Notes under the pieces: model-generated
Databases searched by the model: none
What the model was told of the DNA's origin: nothing
Seen by the model: only the letters and a program-made list of their open reading frames with translations
In this document: positions 2,708 to 46,140 of the stretch, piece after piece
Numbering within the stretch: position 1 is the stretch's first letter
Layout of the letters: every line of letters begins with the position of its first letter
Program-made: the position numbers and the translations under genes
Origin: Typha latifolia
Lineage: Eukaryota > Streptophyta > Magnoliopsida > Poales > Typhaceae
Assembly: GCA_019914945.1 (NCBI GenBank)
Contig: CM034100.1
Coordinates: forward strand, 8,815,096-8,879,095
DNA length: 64,000 nucleotides
Direction of reading: 5' to 3'

Positions 2708-3586
2708 TCAGTTCACATTCTTCACTTCCATGATATTAGGGTCTAGCTCACAATTCCCATCAAAATCCTCATATTCATCTCTAATGGTTATCGAAGCAAA
2801 ACCTTTATAATTTTTGAGGTTTATGATGAGAAGACCTGAAGGTTTGTAAGTAGCCTAGAAGTTGCTCCACTTTTATTGAGTCTATATCCTTGCTTTCTTT
2901 AATAGTAGTGATTTTGATCTGAACCTTTTAGGCAAGAATCTAAGAATTTTTCTAACAATTATGTTTTCGAGAATCTTTTCACCTAGATTAAAATTTGAGT
3001 TCACAATGTCATTAAGTTTTGCATAAGATTCATCAAAAGACTAATTCTCCTCCATGCGGAGGATTTCAAAGCTTGTCGTCGACCTTTATAGCTTAGACAG
3101 CCTGATAGCAGATGTCCCCTTATGAGTAGTCTCAAAGTTTTGCATAAGATTCATTAAAAGACTCATTCTCCTCCATGCGGAGGATTTCAAAGCTTGTCGT
3201 CGACCTTTATAGCTTAGACAGCTTGATAGCAGATGTCCCCTCATGAGTAGTCTCAAAGATATCCCATGCATTCTTAGCTGCTTCGCAAGTAAAAAAATGA
3301 CGAAATTCATTAGAAGAGACATAACAAAAAATCACATTTATTGTCTTGTTATTCTAACCAATTTTCTCATAATCAACTTTTTCCATATATCGTCTGGTTT
3401 TTCAACAATTTTATTTTCCACTTCATAAGTAGGAGGACTCCAACCATCCATTACAGACAACCAAACTCTTTCATCTATAGATTTTAAATATGCATGCATC
3501 CTAGCTTTCCAATAAGAATAGTTTGGTCTATCTAACGCAAGAGGCGCTCTAATGAAAAAAGATAATTTTCCTACAAAATAATCCAT
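2708..3586 (-). pseudogene. gag: Copia-type gag (UBN2/DUF4219-like), element A
   Basis: Gag packages element RNA into virus-like particles. The N-terminus starts MDYFVGKLSFF at 3586, 30 bp past the primer site, and carries the copia signature NYSYWKARMHAYLKS followed by DERVW. Further along, in other frames, come pieces matching the UBN2 core: a 'KNAWDIFETTHEGT'-like segment, 'MEENESFDEFY', then 'RKILRFLPKRF' and 'TTIKESKDID'. A 121-bp tandem duplication (3016-3257) shifts the frame in the middle. The frame ends in a stop at 2708-2710 after a lysine-rich segment. There is no zinc knuckle, and none of pol follows. The family assignment rests on the motif order. Confidence 0.78.
3016..3257. repeat. 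Two 121-bp tandem copies within gag
   Basis: 3016-3136 and 3137-3257 are near-identical direct copies, differing at only a few positions. The period of 121 is not a multiple of three, so the duplication breaks the gag frame. Confidence 0.9.
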
Positions 3587-18105: not shown

Positions 18106-19054
18106 ACAATGCATCCGCAGGCACTTGGATACACTTGTGGTCAAGCAATAAACCGTCTCTATCGTCTATCTCGGGATGGTGCTTCGGATTAGCTCAAACC
18201 TCTTGCAATAACCCTCTTATGCACAACAGGTCAGCGACACTTGCGCTCCTTAACTCCTTGAGAAAGGGAAAAGAAGGCATGAAAAAAGTCTCTAATTCAG
18301 CTTCAATCGGCTGGCATGAAAGAGCATCTACCGCTCAATTCTTTATTCCCTTTTTGTATTGTATCTCATAGGCATACCCCAAAAGCTCTGCCACCCACCA
18401 CTACTGTGCTGGTGTGTGTATCCATTGACTCATGAAATATGACAAACTCTTCTAGTCAGTGCGGATGATGAAGTGACGTCCCACCAAATACAGCGTCCAC
18501 TTTGTCACGACGTGAAGAATCGCCAATATTTCTCTCATAAGTTGAGAGCTATTGTGATCTACCAGACAAAACTTTACTCAAGAATGCTATAGGTTGGCCT
18601 CCTTGCATTAGGACAACACCTATTCTCACTCCGGATATGTCACATTCAATAACAAACTCCCTTTGGAAATTTGGCAACGCCAAAACTGGGGTTTAAAATG
18701 TAGCAGATTTCAATTCTTCAAAGGCCATCGTTGCCTTGTCACTCCATAAAAAGGAATCCTTCCTTAAAAGGGCGATAAGTGGTGTTGCAATTTTACCATA
18801 TCCAGCAACAAATCTGCGGTAGTAACATGTTAACCCAAGGAACCCACGCAGCTCGTGGATATTCCTCGGAATCGACCAATCAGTCATACTCTTCACCTTG
18901 CTTGGATCGGCTGCTACACCTTTTGCTGAAATGATATGCCCCGAATATTCCATCTTTCTCTCAAACCACAAACATTTAGACATCTTGACTTTCAAGGAGT
19001 TTTCTTCAAGTAGCTTTAGCACTTCATGCAAATGTTTCAAATAATTTTCAAAAC
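18106..19054 (-). pseudogene. pol: C-terminal reverse transcriptase and RNase H of G1
   Basis: On the minus strand from 19054: 'SFENYLKHLHEVLKLLEEN', 'MSKCLWFERKMEYSGHII', 'VKSMTDWSIPRNIHELRGFL' and 'YYRRFVAGYGKIATPL', the reverse transcriptase thumb/connection region. Then the RNase H signature 'FVIECDISGVRIGVVL' and 'LSTYEREILAILHVVTKW', ending near 'AVDALSCQP'. The first 125 codons are open; then stops appear. The upstream half, including the catalytic FFDD, lies across the G2 insertion at 27313-28089. Confidence 0.82.
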
Positions 19055-19099
19055 TTGCATTATGTAACACCCATTAAAAAAAAAAAAAAAAATTTAAGC

Positions 19100-20231
19100 G
19101 CACGCGCCATGCGCGTGCACCCTAACCGCAGCGCATGCGCTGACTCCTTCTTCCCTCTCCCCCACCTCTCACAGTTAGTTGCGAGAGGTGGGAGAGAAGG
19201 GCGCCGGAGTGGAGTGAACTCCACTCCGTTGCCCTCTCCACCTCTTCTCTATTTAATCTCCACCCATTTTCCCCCTCGAGTTCCTTCTTTTCGGAATCTT
19301 CTCTTTTTCGCTTTTCCCTACTCTCTTTTCTCTCCTGAGCCGCCGAAGTTTTCGTCATGGGCAGTGAGTCACCGGAGCGCCGGCAGTCAACCAAAACCCC
19401 TCACCTCGATCGTCAGGTTAGCCTTCATCCCCTCTTTATTGCAATTTGAAAATAGCCTAGTTAAGCATGCGTAATTAGGATTTTATTTTCGTCTGCTTCC
19501 ACCGGAGAAATACGCCGACCGGCGACCTCGGGTCGACCACCCACCGGTTCGGGAAGTTTCCCTATTTTTCCCCCTTGCTGTAGGTACCCAAATTGGGTAC
19601 CCATGGGACGCAAGGGAGGCGATGCCATGTCGCCTCCCACCGCCGGGTTTCCTTGGCACCAGCGGCCACCACCGGCGGTGGTGGCCTGACTCGTCAACCT
19701 CGACCGACCCACCTCTTCACTTGAAAGAGGTGGGTACCCGAGAATAGGGCTTCGAGCCCACCTAGCTCTGAGTTGAAAACTCCATGGCCGCCGGCCATGG
19801 AGTTCCTCAACTCTTACCCTCCGGCCGCACTAGCCGGAAGTTCTATCCACTCCTGCGCCCAAGTTGAACTAGTCAACTTGGGGAGAAGTTGCTGGAGCCG
19901 AGGGGGGGCTGCCGGTGACGAGGATCACCGGCAGCAACACCCCTCTCCTCTGTTTCTCCTTCTCTGTCAAGGAGACGAAGAGAGGGTGGAGGTTGGGCCC
20001 CCACCGCTCTCTCTCTGTGGGTTGTGGCGTGGGCTGCGTTGCAGCCTAAGTCCACAGTCCCTTTTTTTTTCTCTAAGGTCTCGGTGGACTGGGCTCTAGA
20101 GCCCAGTCCACCCCTTGGTTTCTGGTGGGCTGCGGGAGGCCCCGCAGACCACCTCCTTATTTGTTGTCAGACTGGGCTCTGGAGCCCAGTCCACCATCTC
20201 ACCCTGCTAGACTGGGCTCTTGAGCCCAGTC
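19100..20231. repeat. Chain of perfect hairpins and palindromes in N2
   Basis: Arms read by eye: 19100-19107/19111-19118 (8 bp); palindrome 19130-19141; 19161-19170/19183-19192 (10 bp); 19205-19215/19218-19228 (11); 19583-19591/19593-19601 (9); 19614-19622/19630-19638 (9); 19664-19674/19676-19686 (11); 19708-19717/19725-19734 (10); 19747-19759 (5, TCG loop); 19778-19789/19793-19804 (12); 19820-19825/19833-19838 (6); 19859-19867/19873-19881 (9); 19908-19918/19925-19935 (11); 20032-20037/20041-20046 (6); 20083-20112 (15-bp arms, no loop); 20131-20136/20141-20146 (6); 20170-20179/20182-20191 and 20210-20219/20222-20231 (10 each). Except for the three GACTGGGCTC units, the hairpins differ in sequence. 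Confidence 0.9.
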
Positions 20232-21243
20232 CATTACCTCTGGTAGGTCTGCAGCCCACTCTCTCTCTCTCACTCTCACTTAATTTGCTGGGCCTTGAAC
20301 TCAGCCCAATCTTTAACATTTTTTTTAACCCTAGTCTAATTAATTTTGAGTCTGTTATTTTTCTTAAATTCTGTTAGCTACCTAAATTGTAATTATTATA
20401 ATTTTTCTCAACCATGTTATTAATAAAATTAGGGACTATACAAAATCAAAATAGTATTTGAATTTATTAGTCTTCTCAATTATCTTCACATTTACAATGT
20501 GAACGGCTCTAATGACCATTATTATTTTAATTAGGACAAATAATATCTCAGACCTAGAGAATCAAACTTAAATATACACAACAAGATGGTTAGTTTATAA
20601 GTCCATTAATTTTATGTCTATTTTATTTATAAATTATTAGATTCAGCATTATGCGGGAAGGATCTTGAAATTCAAGAAGAGCCGACTGATTAGGAGAGTA
20701 AGACGGATTCCAGAAATACCCCAGGCGAGTAGAATTTTATAATAGTCTTTAAAAATGCATGCTTATGTCATATCTTACCTGTGATAGTTAAATGTCATTT
20801 CCTTATGAAACTTATATGACATCTCATATTTGCATTTAATTACATGTCAGTTCTTGTATTATTTATCACTTAATGCACATGTATGATAGACTCTATGTTT
20901 GTTTATAATATCTGTTATTGTGATGATTATGTTAAATAAATAATAGAAGTTATGGCACCACGTGCACGTATCACTATTAGTCAAGTCCCAGTTAGGCAGT
21001 GCCCTTTTACCTACTCAACCCGGGGTTAGGGGTAAGTGTATATTATATAGTATCATATTAGCGGCCTACACCTGAGGTCAGTAGCAGATGGAGCATTCAG
21101 GTGATTACACTGCCCTAGTTGGAGACTTGACTAGTATGATATTAGAAAAGATGATTGAGAGGAAGGGATTGTAGTTCTAGCGGTACCCGAGTACACAGGG
21201 TCAGGGCGTCTATTGAGCTGTGTGCTCTTACCAGCCGTATGTG

Positions 21244-22248
21244 TGATACGATCACGCCTCTAGCTATGGAGCTATGATATCAGCTTAATACGATTACGCC
21301 TCTGGCTATGGAGCTCTGATACCAGCTTATTATGATCTCTCCTTTGGGGCTAAAGATCGATCTCTTCCGATTCTCAGATCTGGATTAGATCTTGCACGGA
21401 ACTTTGAAATAAGATCCCGAACTATGCCGCTGTTGGATCGATGTAAAATTTTGATATGTTGTAGCCCTAGAAAAGAGCTTTCCAACAAATCAAGTTTTAG
21501 GCGAATCGAAGTTGTGGATCTCGAGATATCGTCCATTTAGTGGACGAACGTCAGGATGCTCTGTTTTGGATTCGTGGATGGAGGCACGAGATCCTAGGTA
21601 ATGATGGTTGGTGGAGGACCGGCATTAATGGGGTGGCACCGGTGAAAAAGTGGTGGTGGATGGGTTATGGTTGATGGAATGGTTAGGGCAAGTGCTGGAT
21701 AGATTGGACGAAGGGGGAGGAGAGGGCCACTCCTAAGAGACTAGGGTGATTGGCCAGTCGAGGGAGATTAGAAGCGGCGTCACCGGGGATTGAGGGAACG
21801 AGAGCGAAGAAGACGAAGGAGGCAAGGCAAACTCAATTCTCAATAATCAATAATCAATTTGGTTGCCTACCACATCCTTTTATAGGCTAACCAACAACTC
21901 AAATTAACCCTAAAAACACAATTTTCGTCGACCGCGTTCGAACTTGCCCGACCGCGTTCGAACGCACCTAGTTCACTCTTCTGGATTTACGAACGCGCGA
22001 TCGAACGCACCTGTCGGTATTTGCTAACGCGATGCAGGCGTTCACAGTGCGTTCGAACGCACAATACATTCTCTTCACCACGTTCACAACCCCGTTCACA
22101 AATCGCGTTCGAACTCACTCCACCCGCGTTCGAACGCGACTTACAGAAAACTTATTTTAATGGGAATTAAACACTAAAACATGAAATAAAAACACTCCTA
22201 AAGTGAATCCATGCTAGAGACGACGTCGGTGAAGTCCGAATCGTATCA
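21244..22248 (-). mobile_element. Gypsy-type solo LTR inside N2, with two PBS-bearing end units
   Basis: It is bounded by a perfect 5-bp duplication, ATGTG (21239-21243 and 22249-22253), and ends TGATAC..GTATCA. On the minus strand U3 carries five GTTCGAAC sites (21936, 21956, 22051, 22107, 22128) upstream of a TATA box (TATAAAAGG, about 21881-21889). The U5 end (plus 21244-21331) consists of two 44-bp units, each holding a reversed primer-site copy (gctctgatacca or gctatgatatca). These copies are inside the duplication and so belong to the integrated LTR. Confidence 0.88.
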
Positions 22249-22922
22249 ATGTGATGATTTTTCTCTGTGCGGTGTTGATGGGCCTACGACTGGGGTCCTT
22301 AGTCTGATGGCCACAGACAACCGGTCATATGCAGCGTCGCCAGGCATGTATGGGCGATAATATTGCTAGTTGACTAGTCCCCCTCGATTTTTATGATGCT
22401 ATGTGAGATATGTTATTGTGACTCGACTCCTGTGTGGATTTCTATGTAAAATAAGCTATAATGATGAAAGCTCTTAAAAGTCATAATGTACATTTTTTCC
22501 TGACATGTTATGAGTTGCATTTTTACTTATCATGTAATATTCTTAGATTATTATTAGATTTTACTTGCTGGGCCCCGTGCTCACCGCCATTTTTGGTGGA
22601 AATATTTCAGAGATATAGAGGATGCTGACATCGAGGAGTAGCAGATTCATTCCTTATTTTTAGCATTTGTTTATTCTATCATTTCAGTTGGACTTAGACC
22701 CTACGAGGGTATTTATGTTTTAGCAAATTTGTGATGGACTTGTATTCCTAGAGGCTTGTTGAGGCCTGTGATATTATAATTCATGATTATTTGTTGGATT
22801 ATTATGGTATTTCTTGACTTATTCAGATACTTGGTGAGATTATTTTACTGACCGATTACGTGGGAATCACGTGGACATGCTCCACATGAAGAACACGTGA
22901 ATTTTTAGAAGTGGGTGTTTCA

Positions 22923-23683
22923 CATTAGGTGTTTATTTTTATTAAAATAAAATTTCTTTAGGTCGCGTTCGAATGCCCTTGTGAATGCCTTGTGAATGCC
23001 TATGTCGCGTTTGTAAATCCAAAGAAGGGGCTTTTTAAGTGCGTTCGAACGCGATCGGGCGTGTTCGAATGCGATCGACGGGAATCCTCTAGAATTAGGA
23101 TTTCATATTATTTTAGGATTTATTGGCTAGCCTCTATAAATATGTGGATGACACCCAACTTCATTATGGAATTGGATTATTGATTGTTTGCCTCCTATCT
23201 TCTCTCTAGACTTCTCCCTCCTCTCTCTTCACCATCCTTCCACCTCTACCGCTGGCAAGGTTTCTCCTAACTTCTAATCTCCCTCGACTGCCGATCGACC
23301 CCTGTTCTTTGGGATCTCAACCACTTCGTTCCCCTCGTCTACTTCCTTTAATCACTTCCACAATGGTTATTCCATATTTTCGTCCCTGATACAGTTTGTA
23401 TATTTGAAGGTCATAAATACAAAAGTTGTAGATTATGAAGTTACAGATCCAACCCAATTGGTTTCGTAATTTTATGACTACTAGAGAATAGCTGACGAAT
23501 ATTTTCCCACAGTTGCGCGGACTGCTTCGTACAATAAATTCAGATCTTAAGGAATTGAGGAATTGTTCCGTAGCTGATCTTTTGGTTCTAGATCCTATCA
23601 ATTTGGTATCAGAGCCTATCATTTGGTATCAGAGCCTTAACAAGTTGGTATTAGAGCCTATCAATTAGTATCAGAGCCAAACA
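22923..23683 (+). repeat. 5' LTR of G2
   Basis: It resumes after N2 with 'cattaggtgttta' and has GTTCGAAC at 23043-23050, a TATA box (tataaatatg, about 23135-23144), a CT-rich leader and a U5. Its last 83 bp (23601-23683) are four 20-21 bp units of primer-site copy plus 'tatca/taaca/aaaca'. The true primer site follows at 23687-23698. Confidence 0.85.
23601..23683 (+). repeat. Four tandem PBS-like units at the LTR end
   Basis: Units 23601-23621, 23622-23642, 23643-23663 and 23664-23683 each contain tggtatcagagcc or a one- to two-base variant and end in CA. Confidence 0.92.
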
Positions 23684-24929: not shown

Positions 24930-25755
24930 CTAGTAGGAGATGAGCCTTAAACGAGTTCAAGTACTAGTAGCGAATTGTCTAATTTATTAGATAACTTTTC
25001 TGGACTGTTTGTGAAGCCATAAGAGTTACCACCGAGGAGAGTGGCAGATCATCGCATAGAGATTGTACCCGGGGCTGCACCGGCAAACGTGAGGCCATAT
25101 CGGTATCCACATGTGCAAAAAGAAGTTATCTCAAAGATAGTAGCCGAGATGTTGGAGCAAGGCCTCGTTCAACTAAGTCATAGCTCATACTCATCCCCCA
25201 TGTTATTGGTGCGAAAAAAGGACGGGACATGGCATTTTTGTGTTGATTATCGAGCACTAAATGCTATTATCGTTAAGGACCGGTATCCTATTCCGATTAT
25301 CGAGGAGTTGCTAGATAAGCTTGCAGGGGCAACTATATTCAGCAAGCTTGACTTGAGGGCTGGGGCTGGTATCATCAAATTATAGTTCACTAGGCGGATG
25401 TGCACAAAATTGCATTTCGGATTCTGGATGGGCATATTTCAATACTCTAGCTACCTTTCAAGGCCTCATGAAAGATATATTTTGGCCTCTCTTGTGAAGG
25501 TTTGTCTTGATATTTTTTGACAATATTTTAGTGTATAGCAGGATTGAATTGGAGCATTGGCGACATTTGGAGGACGTGCTGAATTTGTTCGAGCAAAACC
25601 AATTGAAGATCAAGAAGTCCAAGTGCCTATGCGGAGTACCAAATGTGGAGCATTTAGGCCACATCATTTCAGCGGATGGTGTAGCGGCGGAGCCTCAAAA
25701 AGTTGCATGTATGACTGCTTGGCCTATTCCTACTACTACCACCGAATTGAGATGA
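24930..25755 (+). pseudogene. pol: Reverse transcriptase of G2, with internal deletion
   Basis: It starts with a linker ('SNLLDNFSGLF') and 'DHRIEIVPGAAPANVRPYRY'. Then come the fingers and palm: 'GTWHFCVDYRALNAI', 'RYPIPIIEELLDKL', and motif A 'TIFSKLDLR'. After 'LDLR' the frame is lost and about 30-40 codons (the MPFGL region) are damaged or missing. It resumes at 25507 with the catalytic box reading FFDNILVYS, so one of the two catalytic aspartates is Asn. It continues 'SKCLCGVPNVEHLGHIIS' into the connection. The enzyme would be inactive even without the stops. Confidence 0.83.
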
Positions 25756-26298
25756 TTTTTGGGGCTGATTGGTTATTATCGTCGATTCATCACCTCTGGC
25801 AAAATCGCTGCTCCTCTCACTTCTTTGTTGAAGAAGGACTCTTTTAGATGGATGGATGAAGCCACTTTAGCCTTTGAAAAATTGAAAACAACGATGGCGA
25901 CGGCACCCGTTTTACTACTACTGAACTTCACCAAAGAGTTCATTGTGGAATGTGATGCGTCAGGTGTTTGCATAGGAGCTGTACTAATACAAGAAGAACG
26001 TCCCATTGCCTATCTTAGCAAGGCTTTATCGCAAAAATCTCAACAATTATCGACTTATGAGAGAGAGATGTTGGCAATTCTGCATGCGGTGATAAAATGG
26101 AGGCCTTATTTGATCGGTAGACGATTCATTATCCAAGCCGATCAAAGTAGCCTTCCATACTTTATGGGACAGCGCATACACATTCCGGCACAGCAATGAT
26201 CAAAGTTGCTGGGGTATGATTATGAAATTCAATATAAGAAGAGAACAGAAAATAGAGCGGCGGATGCACTATCGCGCCAATCCGTTACCGACAACATG
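25756..26298 (+). pseudogene. pol: RT connection and RNase H of G2
   Basis: 'FLGLIGYYRRFITSGKIAAP' leads to 'DEATLAFEKLKTTMATAPVL'. Then comes the Ty3-type RNase H: 'FIVECDASGVCIGAVLIQ', 'PIAYLSKALSQKSQQLSTYE', 'REMLAILHAVIKWRPYL', 'QADQSSLPYFM', ending at 'NRAADALSRQ'. It is open for about 146 codons to 26197. At 26298 the frame jumps straight into chromodomain codons, so the whole integrase is deleted. Confidence 0.85.
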
Positions 26299-33530: not shown

Positions 33531-33590
33531 GAACGCCTGCATTAGGTTTGCAAAAACAAAGAATGCAAAATGCGCGTTCGAGTGCCATGT

Positions 33591-33940
33591 TCGAACGCCT
33601 TATTCAAACGTCGCGTTCAAACGTTTGCATTAGGTTCGCATCGACAGAGAACGCCTTTTGTGTGTTCGAAAGCGATCGGTGCATTCGAATGCGATCGGCG
33701 AGAGTCCACTAGAATTAGAGTTAATAATTATTGTTTTGGCTTGTTGGCTAGCCTCTATAAAGATTTCGAACGCCTTATTCAAATGCCGCATTCAAACGTT
33801 TGCATTAGGTTCGCATCGACAGAGAACGCCTTTTGTGTGTTCGAAAGCGATCGGTGCATTCGAATGCGATCGGCGAGAGTCCACTAGAATTAGAGTTAAT
33901 AATTATTATTTTGGCTTGTTGGCTAGCCTCTATAAAGATG
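33591..33940 (+). repeat. 175-bp tandem duplication of U3 and TATA
   Basis: 33591-33765 and 33766-33940 are near-identical. Each has TTCGAA-type motifs and a TATA box (tataaagat, 33756-33764 and 33931-33939). Confidence 0.9.
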
Positions 33941-38040: not shown

Positions 38041-38492
38041 AGCTTGGGGGTACCGGTTTGGCACGATAGTGCATCCACTGCTCTATTTTCTGTTCCTTTC
38101 TTGTATTGAATTTTATAATCATTCCCCAGCAATTTTATGACCCATCTTTGCTATGCTGGACTGTGAATACGATGTCCCATAAAGTATGGAAGGCTCATTT
38201 GATTGGTTCGGATAATGAATTGCCTACCGATCAAATAAGGCCTCCACTTTGTTACCGCATGCAGAGTTGCCAACATCTCTCTCTCGTAGGTCGATATTTG
38301 CTAGGATTTTTGTGATAATGCCTTACTGAGAAAAGCTATAGGATGTCCTCCTTGCATTACTATAGCTCCTATGCCAATTTCCGATGCATTACATTCCAGA
38401 ATGAACTTTTTGGTGAAGTCCGGTAGAGTTAGGGCATCGTTGTCATTGCTATTTTTAGTTTTTCAAAGGCTGTACTAGCTTCATCTGTCCAT
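38041..38492 (-). pseudogene. pol: RNase H of G4
   Basis: The minus strand shows the fragmentary order of the Ty3 RNase H: a 'DEASTAFEKLKIAM' lead-in, then frames matching 'ECNASEIGIGAIVMQ'- and 'YERE'-like blocks, and the end 'IQYKKGTENRAVDALSC' (about 38050-38110). Multiple frameshifts; assigned by position and by likeness to G2. Confidence 0.7.
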
Positions 38493-45973: not shown

Positions 45974-46140
45974 ACAATCATCCATCTCAACTCTAAATAT
46001 CATCCACCATGCTGGACTACGGTACCCGGCCCCAAACTCAGGGTATGCTCTAAGCTTGTGACATGATGTGTATTGAGTTTGGGGCCGGGTACCGTAGTCT
46101 AGCATGGTGGATGATATTTAGAGTTGAGATGGATGATTGT
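45974..46140. repeat. 67-bp near-perfect inverted repeat in N3
   Basis: The left arm (45974-46040) and right arm (46074-46140) are reverse complements with one mismatch by eye. The loop is 33 bp. N0 has only one copy of this segment (about 7880-7950), so the second arm was gained in N3. Confidence 0.92.

Follow-up and report, generated by a model that had tools for sequence, protein, structure and literature searches.

A hairpin train at the core of an apparent spliceosomal intron within the LTR of an old Ty3/gypsy chromovirus family in Typha latifolia

Introduction

Why should the LTR of a plant retrotransposon carry a train of perfect inverted repeats that are mostly unrelated to one another in sequence, and at what step in the life of the element, if at any, do they act? 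The question is raised by a locus of Typha latifolia that lies in a stretch of 64,000 nucleotides of contig CM034100.1 (hereafter the window; positions are counted from its first letter). A sequence-only reading of the window had described a series of hairpins over 1.1 kb of an LTR and had offered two accounts of it, a structured RNA leader or a mutational process that generates palindromes. Behind the question stands a wider one, for little is known of how genomic RNA is separated from messenger RNA in plant retrotransposons. Here we report that the main part of the train makes up, judging from the genomic copies of the family, the core of a spliceosomal intron, 1.22 kb long and contained entirely in the LTR of an old chromovirus family, and we weigh what the hairpins may do there.

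Results

The hairpins and their layout

An inverted-repeat scan of 19063-20300 found 16 perfect examples, with arms 7-15 bp long and loops of 0-12 nt, and all six hairpins named in the earlier reading were among them. With arms of at least 9 bp and loops of at most 12 nt there were 12 perfect inverted repeats in 19100-20240, whereas 200 dinucleotide shuffles of this stretch yielded a mean of 0.045 and a maximum of 1; the earlier estimate, that chance would give a few, was therefore far too high. When the window was cut into 1141-base bins, 56 in all, 10 repeats fell in the bin 19398-20538 and 0-2 in each of the others, one of which includes the upstream part of the train. Folding energies were computed part by part on both strands, with 60 shuffles per part, a comparison that the sequence-only reading had proposed and in which the train fell far below its controls. 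The stretch 19576-20265 folds at -381 kcal/mol as against -276 for the shuffled sequences, with z values of -12.8 on the plus strand and -15.5 on the minus strand, and 19095-19235 gave -10.8 and -7.9. The remaining parts gave, on the plus and minus strands respectively, +1.7 and +1.1 (19236-19416), -1.4 and +0.4 (19417-19575), -0.7 and -0.2 (20266-20640) and -2.2 and -0.7 (20641-21247). Because strong values occur only at 19095-19235 and 19576-20265, the structure consists of two separate blocks, each strong on both strands. Together, the shuffle counts and the folding energies rule out a chance origin of the hairpins.

The stems fall accordingly into two clusters, 19100-19228 and 19580-20260, between which the window copy has no stem of 7 bp or more; the gap is occupied by the TATA-like box, exon 1 and the start of the intron (Table 1). 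The stems of the earlier reading are real, but their series comes in two groups. The same layout is seen in the family. Among 38 copies the main train contains a mean of 6.97 perfect stems per copy with arms of at least 9 bp and exon 2 a mean of 0.63, and no hairpin of this arm length was found in the promoter and exon 1 or in the 5' part of the intron. Both LTRs of a full-length element, L030/L031, bear hairpins, 10 and 11 respectively with arms of at least 9 bp.

Most of the stems have no sequence kinship. There are only three small related sets, namely the GACTGGGCTC units, the stems at 19161 and 19707, which have CCCACCTCT in common, and those at 20030, 20124 and 20242, which have TGGGCTGC in common. 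The earlier statement that this is not a simple tandem repeat is borne out, and such a repeat is ruled out by the smallness of the related sets; the statement that the last three units are the sole copies of one another does not hold, since the other two sets are related as well. The number of duplicated units varies from copy to copy. In several stems the arms are complementary right to the centre, with spacers of 0-2 nt. A comparison with Rfam returned 30 matches at E <=1, mostly to miRNA models, of which none reached the gathering score.

Other repeats were noted elsewhere in the window: 167 bases at 45974-46140 match their own complement at 87%, and there are direct tandem pairs at 33590-33939 (175 bp, 98% identity) and 3014-3258 (124 bp, 97% identity).

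The hairpins are carried by a solo LTR from a Ty3/gypsy chromovirus

The sequence-only reading placed the train in an LTR, and the ends of 19063-22922 agree. They read TGTAACACCC...GGGTGTTTCA, and the TG...CA ends together with the 5-bp duplication CATTA on either side identify the window copy as a solo LTR, about 2.85 kb long when a later insert is subtracted. Many other copies in the 214-Mb genome match 19063-22922 apart from this insert. Among the 20 of them in which both flanks could be read, the 5-bp duplication is exact in 13 (a number that includes L032 and L037, which have identical flanks and may be one duplicated insertion) and has one mismatch in 3. The four without a duplication are L030, which is half of a full-length element, and L015, L035 and L038, the flanks of which resemble those of full-length elements.

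The full-length relative, L030 with L031, identifies the family. A Pfam search of L030, made in six pieces that were each searched apart, matched Retrotrans_gag, zf-CCHC, RVT_1, RT_RNaseH, rve, SH3_Tf2-1 and Chromo, the last with 26.0 bits against a cut-off of 25.1. The order is gag, zinc knuckle, reverse transcriptase, RNase H, integrase and chromodomain, and this order together with the chromodomain places the element among the Ty3/gypsy chromoviruses and not in Copia. Three nt past the LTR, L030 has the primer-binding site TGGTATCAGAGC, which we take to match the initiator tRNA. Among the best 120 of 7995 scored protein relatives the identities ranged over 46-74%, and every organism named was a plant except in a single Bifidobacterium-labelled record.

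Table 1. Features of the LTR in the window, with positions counted from the first letter of the window
Feature	Position	Strand	Remarks
Solo LTR, Ty3/gypsy chromovirus	19063..22922	+	TG...CA ends; CATTA duplication on both sides
Upstream hairpin cluster, four stems	19100..19228	.	Before the TATA-like box; stems at 19100-19118, 19129-19142, 19161-19192 and 19205-19228
TATA-like box TATTTAA	19250..19256	+	Predicted promoter; kept in nearly all aligned rows
Exon 1 of leader	19280..19416	+	Ends in CAG; 3' end from spliced copies, 5' end predicted
Spliceosomal-type intron GTTAGC...TTATTAG	19417..20640	+	Within the LTR; 1.22 kb
Main hairpin train, about 16 stems in the family	19580..20260	.	Some stems decayed in the window copy
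A+T-rich 3' part of intron	20266..20640	+	GC 0.256; mean of 0.05 hairpins per copy
Exon 2, first part (LTR 3' of the acceptor)	20641..21243	+	Directly follows exon 1 where the intron is spliced out
Later insertion, window copy	21244..22248	.	TG...CA ends; 5-bp duplication ATGTG
LTR 3' part	22254..22922	+	Followed in L030 by 3 nt and then TGGTATCAGAGC

The later insert comprises 1,005 bp that the other copies lack at this position. It has 9-bp inverted ends, TGATACGAT/ATCGTATCA, set by eye like the ATGTG duplication, and is probably another solo LTR. Within it, at 21933-22141, a 17-nt unit built round the palindrome TTCGAA occurs six times, at a spacing of 20-56 nt, and similar words recur near 22960. 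On the other side of the LTR, a repeat fragment at 18312-19062 is akin to 25563-26279 and 38059-38372; it is probably minus-strand gypsy pol, and at 19063 the LTR breaks into it.

An apparent intron within the LTR

A search with the 3' part of the LTR gave 40 copies among the matches listed, of which 18 were new relative to the first list. Seven of the 18 (L066-L072) are without about 1.2 kb, nine retain the hairpin region wholly or in part, and two (L048 and L054) are without the 5' region; one of the nine, L062, has lost the train by a different internal loss. A base-by-base reading of all seven intronless copies shows that exactly 19417-20640 is gone, so that CAG is joined to ATTCA, with one changed letter in the CAG of two copies. 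At the ends of the missing part, all 39 aligned intron-bearing rows retain GT and 37 of 38 retain AG. A pattern search of the genome that allowed at most 3 mismatches located 8 junction loci, and a second junction probe located 8, one of them shared, which makes 15 distinct intronless loci; the 8 beyond the first seven agree in alignment with the same exon join. Control patterns read backwards had no match in the genome, and a probe for the exon-intron boundary found 75 loci, the window included. The simplest explanation of the intronless copies, as far as genomic sequence can tell, is reverse transcription of spliced RNA.

Since the intron takes in 19580-20260, most of the train, about 16 stems, is intronic. 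This modifies the earlier suggestion that most hairpins lie in the transcribed leader. The TATA-like box at about 19250 is present as TATTTAA in nearly all rows compared, and most of the stems do lie 3' of it, but these belong to the intron, and four stems are 5' of the box and outside the intron altogether.

Intronless copies arise repeatedly and seem to spread poorly

Before counting, 11 of the 57 fetched loci (L009-L065) were dropped, as they held too little of the region. The trees contain L009-L047 apart from L023 and L039, which are without exon 2, together with the intronless copies and, in the tree with seven such copies, L073; L048-L065, L074 and L075-L085 were left out. In a tree of 46 LTRs, built from non-intron sequence, the seven intronless copies require 7 changes, of which 6 are forced by well-supported branches, and a single intronless clade is rejected with p-AU 1e-44. 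The intronless label does not cluster on this tree, as 500 of 500 shuffles required as few changes. In a 53-row tree, based on exon 2 only, 15 intronless copies require 13 changes, at least 9 of them forced by well-supported branches, and here too a single intronless clade is rejected (p-AU 5e-6) and clustering of the label was not found (267 of 500 shuffles as low). Among 200 bootstrap trees the number of losses was 11-14. Both trees therefore reject the notion that the intronless form is one deletion lineage. L086 and L093 are a supported intronless pair (98/86), L069 and L072 group weakly, and no other intronless copies group. In the assembly (G000 C6) L086 and L093 are on the same chromosome, about 36 kb apart and in opposite orientation; they are perhaps an intronless lineage that moved again.

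These counts were compared with a simulation in which loss is inherited and has an equal chance on each branch, using sets with 13-17 intronless tips and 60 bootstrap trees. Under such neutral, heritable loss the simulations averaged 7.0 losses, and 1.8% of 4156 had at least as many as were observed on the tree in question, a comparison that assumes the equal chance per branch and draws the intron-bearing and intronless copies from different searches. On the best tree alone the observed losses were matched in 0.7%; when only the 9 forced losses are counted, the simulated share is 25%. The value of 1.8% makes the intronless copies look like dead ends and suggests that they seldom found lineages, while intron-bearing ones do. 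Absence of the train is not always sterile, since L062 has lost the train by another route and L086 and L093 form a supported pair.

Are the stems maintained?

The sequence-only reading proposed a test of the stems for covariation and named their decay at the neutral rate in other copies as a refutation, and the comparison of copies gives a divided answer; all p values for arms and spacers below are single-test and uncorrected for the several tests made. In a set of 40 LTRs the intronic arms have 67 shared to 80 single changes as against 76 to 90 in the spacers (p 1.0), so that arms and spacers do not differ. Upstream of the promoter the same set has 8 shared to 23 single changes in arms as against 16 to 9 outside them (p 0.006). 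The addition of the older lineages L075-L085 gave a set of 58 rows; the tests on this set, like those of p-distance and compensatory change, cover the region up to 20060. Single-copy changes in it occur at similar rates, 7.3 (arms) and 8.0 (spacers) per 1000 clean cells. Changes in at least 3 copies are not significantly depleted in arms (65:86 vs 93:82 shared to single, p 0.076), those in at least 8 copies are rarer there (14:86 vs 32:82, p 0.013), and so are transversions in at least 3 copies (4:45 vs 21:50, p 0.0055); for transitions alone the depletion has p 0.19 (at least 3 copies) and p 0.067 (at least 8 copies). Among 28 distant copies the p-distance rises from 0.107 in the arms through 0.165 in the loops to 0.198 in the spacers, where arms are the columns paired in at least 3 copies, a definition that may somewhat favour conserved columns. 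This arm deficit holds alike for CpG, other G/C and A/T columns and was matched by none of 488 circular shifts.

Compensatory change is at most weakly in excess. Double changes that keep pairing comprise 0.062 of changed pairs as against 0.040 with re-dealt partners, a proportion reached in 12 of 200 controls, and in a second test 0.057 as against 0.021-0.043, reached in 0 of 12 controls (L079 was trimmed in both tests and L076 in that with 200 controls). Only six pairs have two pair types in at least 2 copies each, strong covariation across copies was not found in the stems, and the changes in them are mostly single and uncompensated. In the intron stems G.T mispairs are not commoner than A.C (5 and 6 among mispairs common to at least 8 copies), which would not be predicted by pairing of the sense RNA alone. 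In the four upstream stems the G.T and A.C mispairs number 7 and 2 in at least 3 copies, and 7 and 16 in one or two copies.

The stems thus look old and inherited, subject to constraint in the long run and to decay after insertion. For the structured leader of the earlier reading, the folding and the conserved arms of the distant copies speak in favour, and the 40-LTR set, the weak covariation and the parity of G.T and A.C speak against; the stems may act as RNA or as DNA.

Discussion

The reading that we prefer, with a probability of about 0.5, is that the hairpin region is a cis-acting element of the unspliced genomic RNA that serves its retention, export or packaging. Transcription from the 5' LTR, with a start site predicted near 19280, would place the main train in the leader of the full-length RNA, and splicing would strip it from that leader. 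The genomic copies suggest that spliced RNA has been reverse-transcribed repeatedly, to yield LTRs without the intron. Lying between donor and acceptor, the main train is confined to unspliced RNA, by position only; there it could promote retention of the intron, or the export or packaging of the RNA that is to be copied, and the spliced RNA, with its unstructured leader, could act as message. A bolder form of this proposal, which we regard as tentative, is that the train labels the unspliced RNA as genome, that splicing removes the label, and that copies of the stripped RNA are dead ends. If this were true, the LTR would encode a mark of genomic RNA together with a fossil record of its failures.

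Several alternatives must be weighed against the cis-acting RNA element, and the main one, possible but in our judgment not probable, is that the hairpins are DNA palindromes with a role in transcription or chromatin, as sites for dimeric proteins, as cruciforms, or as the seed of hairpin-derived small RNAs, as proposed for Sirevirus LTRs, their position in an intron being secondary. Complementarity that continues to the centre, with spacers of 0-2 nt, exceeds what RNA pairing needs, the folding energy lies far beneath that of the shuffles on either strand, the intron stems show no preference for G.T over A.C, and the arms of the four stems 5' of the TATA-like box look constrained (p 0.006). 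Against this reading stands the placing of some 16 stems 3' of the promoter and inside an intron, and the stems, being mostly unrelated, are unlike repeated binding sites. That the intronless copies are chance deletions, or an ancestral form that preceded insertion of an intron-like piece, would explain the mere existence of two length forms; it is very improbable given the same GT-AG junction in separate lineages and the rejection of a single clade for 7 copies and for 15.

It is also conceivable, although unlikely, that the hairpins are the product of a palindrome-making mutational process, such as snap-back of the reverse transcriptase or a switch of its template, and would then be tolerated because the intron and the far-upstream DNA are free to vary. 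Tiny spacers, perfect arms and mostly unrelated sequences are what such a process would leave, duplicated units differ in number among copies, and the promoter and exon 1 and the 5' part of the intron are free of arms of 9 bp or more in the 38 copies. However, divergent copies have the same stems and have lost them by decay or deletion, the arms are better conserved than the spacers in the distant set, and a comparison of the copies by eye showed no case in which a stem had arisen from an ancestor with one arm, a comparison beyond which lie palindromes older than the common ancestor of all copies. The variation seen by eye was the decay, deletion and duplication of existing units. A little less likely still, the hairpins may have no present role and be an accident of origin that was amplified by copying and decays neutrally. 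Weak covariation, the equality of arms and spacers in the 40-LTR set and the mostly uncompensated single changes are as this would predict, but the arm constraint in the distant set and the retention of the intron in spreading lineages are not.

Whichever of these readings applies to the hairpins, the LTR intron leaves in the genome a tally of the spliced RNAs that underwent copying, which allows a direct comparison of how intron-bearing and intronless copies have fared. The hairpin region is compact enough to be tested for splicing control, packaging and small-RNA production.

The preferred reading, a cis-acting element of unspliced RNA, has a counterpart in retroviral leaders, where packaging stem-loops lie 3' of the splice donor, and in HTLV-1, BLV and foamy viruses the splice donor is in the R region. 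As in these leaders, a structured element is lost upon splicing, so that unspliced genomes would be chosen, although here this follows from position only. The acceptor of retroviral leaders is far downstream, whereas here it is inside the LTR.

Among plant elements, the LTRs of maize Sireviruses have a palindrome-rich cis-regulatory region (Bousios et al. 2016, via the accessible parts of PMC5311732 and PMC10760457), the same extracts link the palindrome clusters to small-RNA hotspots, and in maize Copia structured regions the commonest motif is given as CACCGGACNNNGTCCGGTG (PMC10760457). The present LTR resembles these, as far as the extracts describe them, in having clusters of palindromes that vary in sequence and are predicted to form secondary structure, and differs in that Sireviruses are Copia elements, whereas here the carrier is a Ty3/gypsy chromovirus with stems that are mostly unrelated and mostly intronic. 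Splicing is described for the plant LTR retrotransposons Ogre and EVADE (PMC12786077) and for BARE1, CRR and Bagy2 (PMC3735527), in the portions of these papers available to us. In all of them, as apparently in the present family to judge from its genomic copies, retrotransposon RNA is spliced and replication needs the unspliced form; according to the excerpted text their introns lie between or within coding regions, while here donor and acceptor are both in the LTR. The last of these sources states, in its accessible part, that the copying of spliced RNA is something elements have to avoid, and that amplification of DNA copies made from spliced BARE RNA did not succeed (PMC3735527), in contrast to the at least 15 intronless copies present in this genome. 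Within its accessible text, the open-licence literature searched describes no intron that is contained entirely in an LTR. Measured against those sources, palindromic LTRs and the splicing of retrotransposons were already known, and what is new is an LTR-internal intron that carries hairpins.
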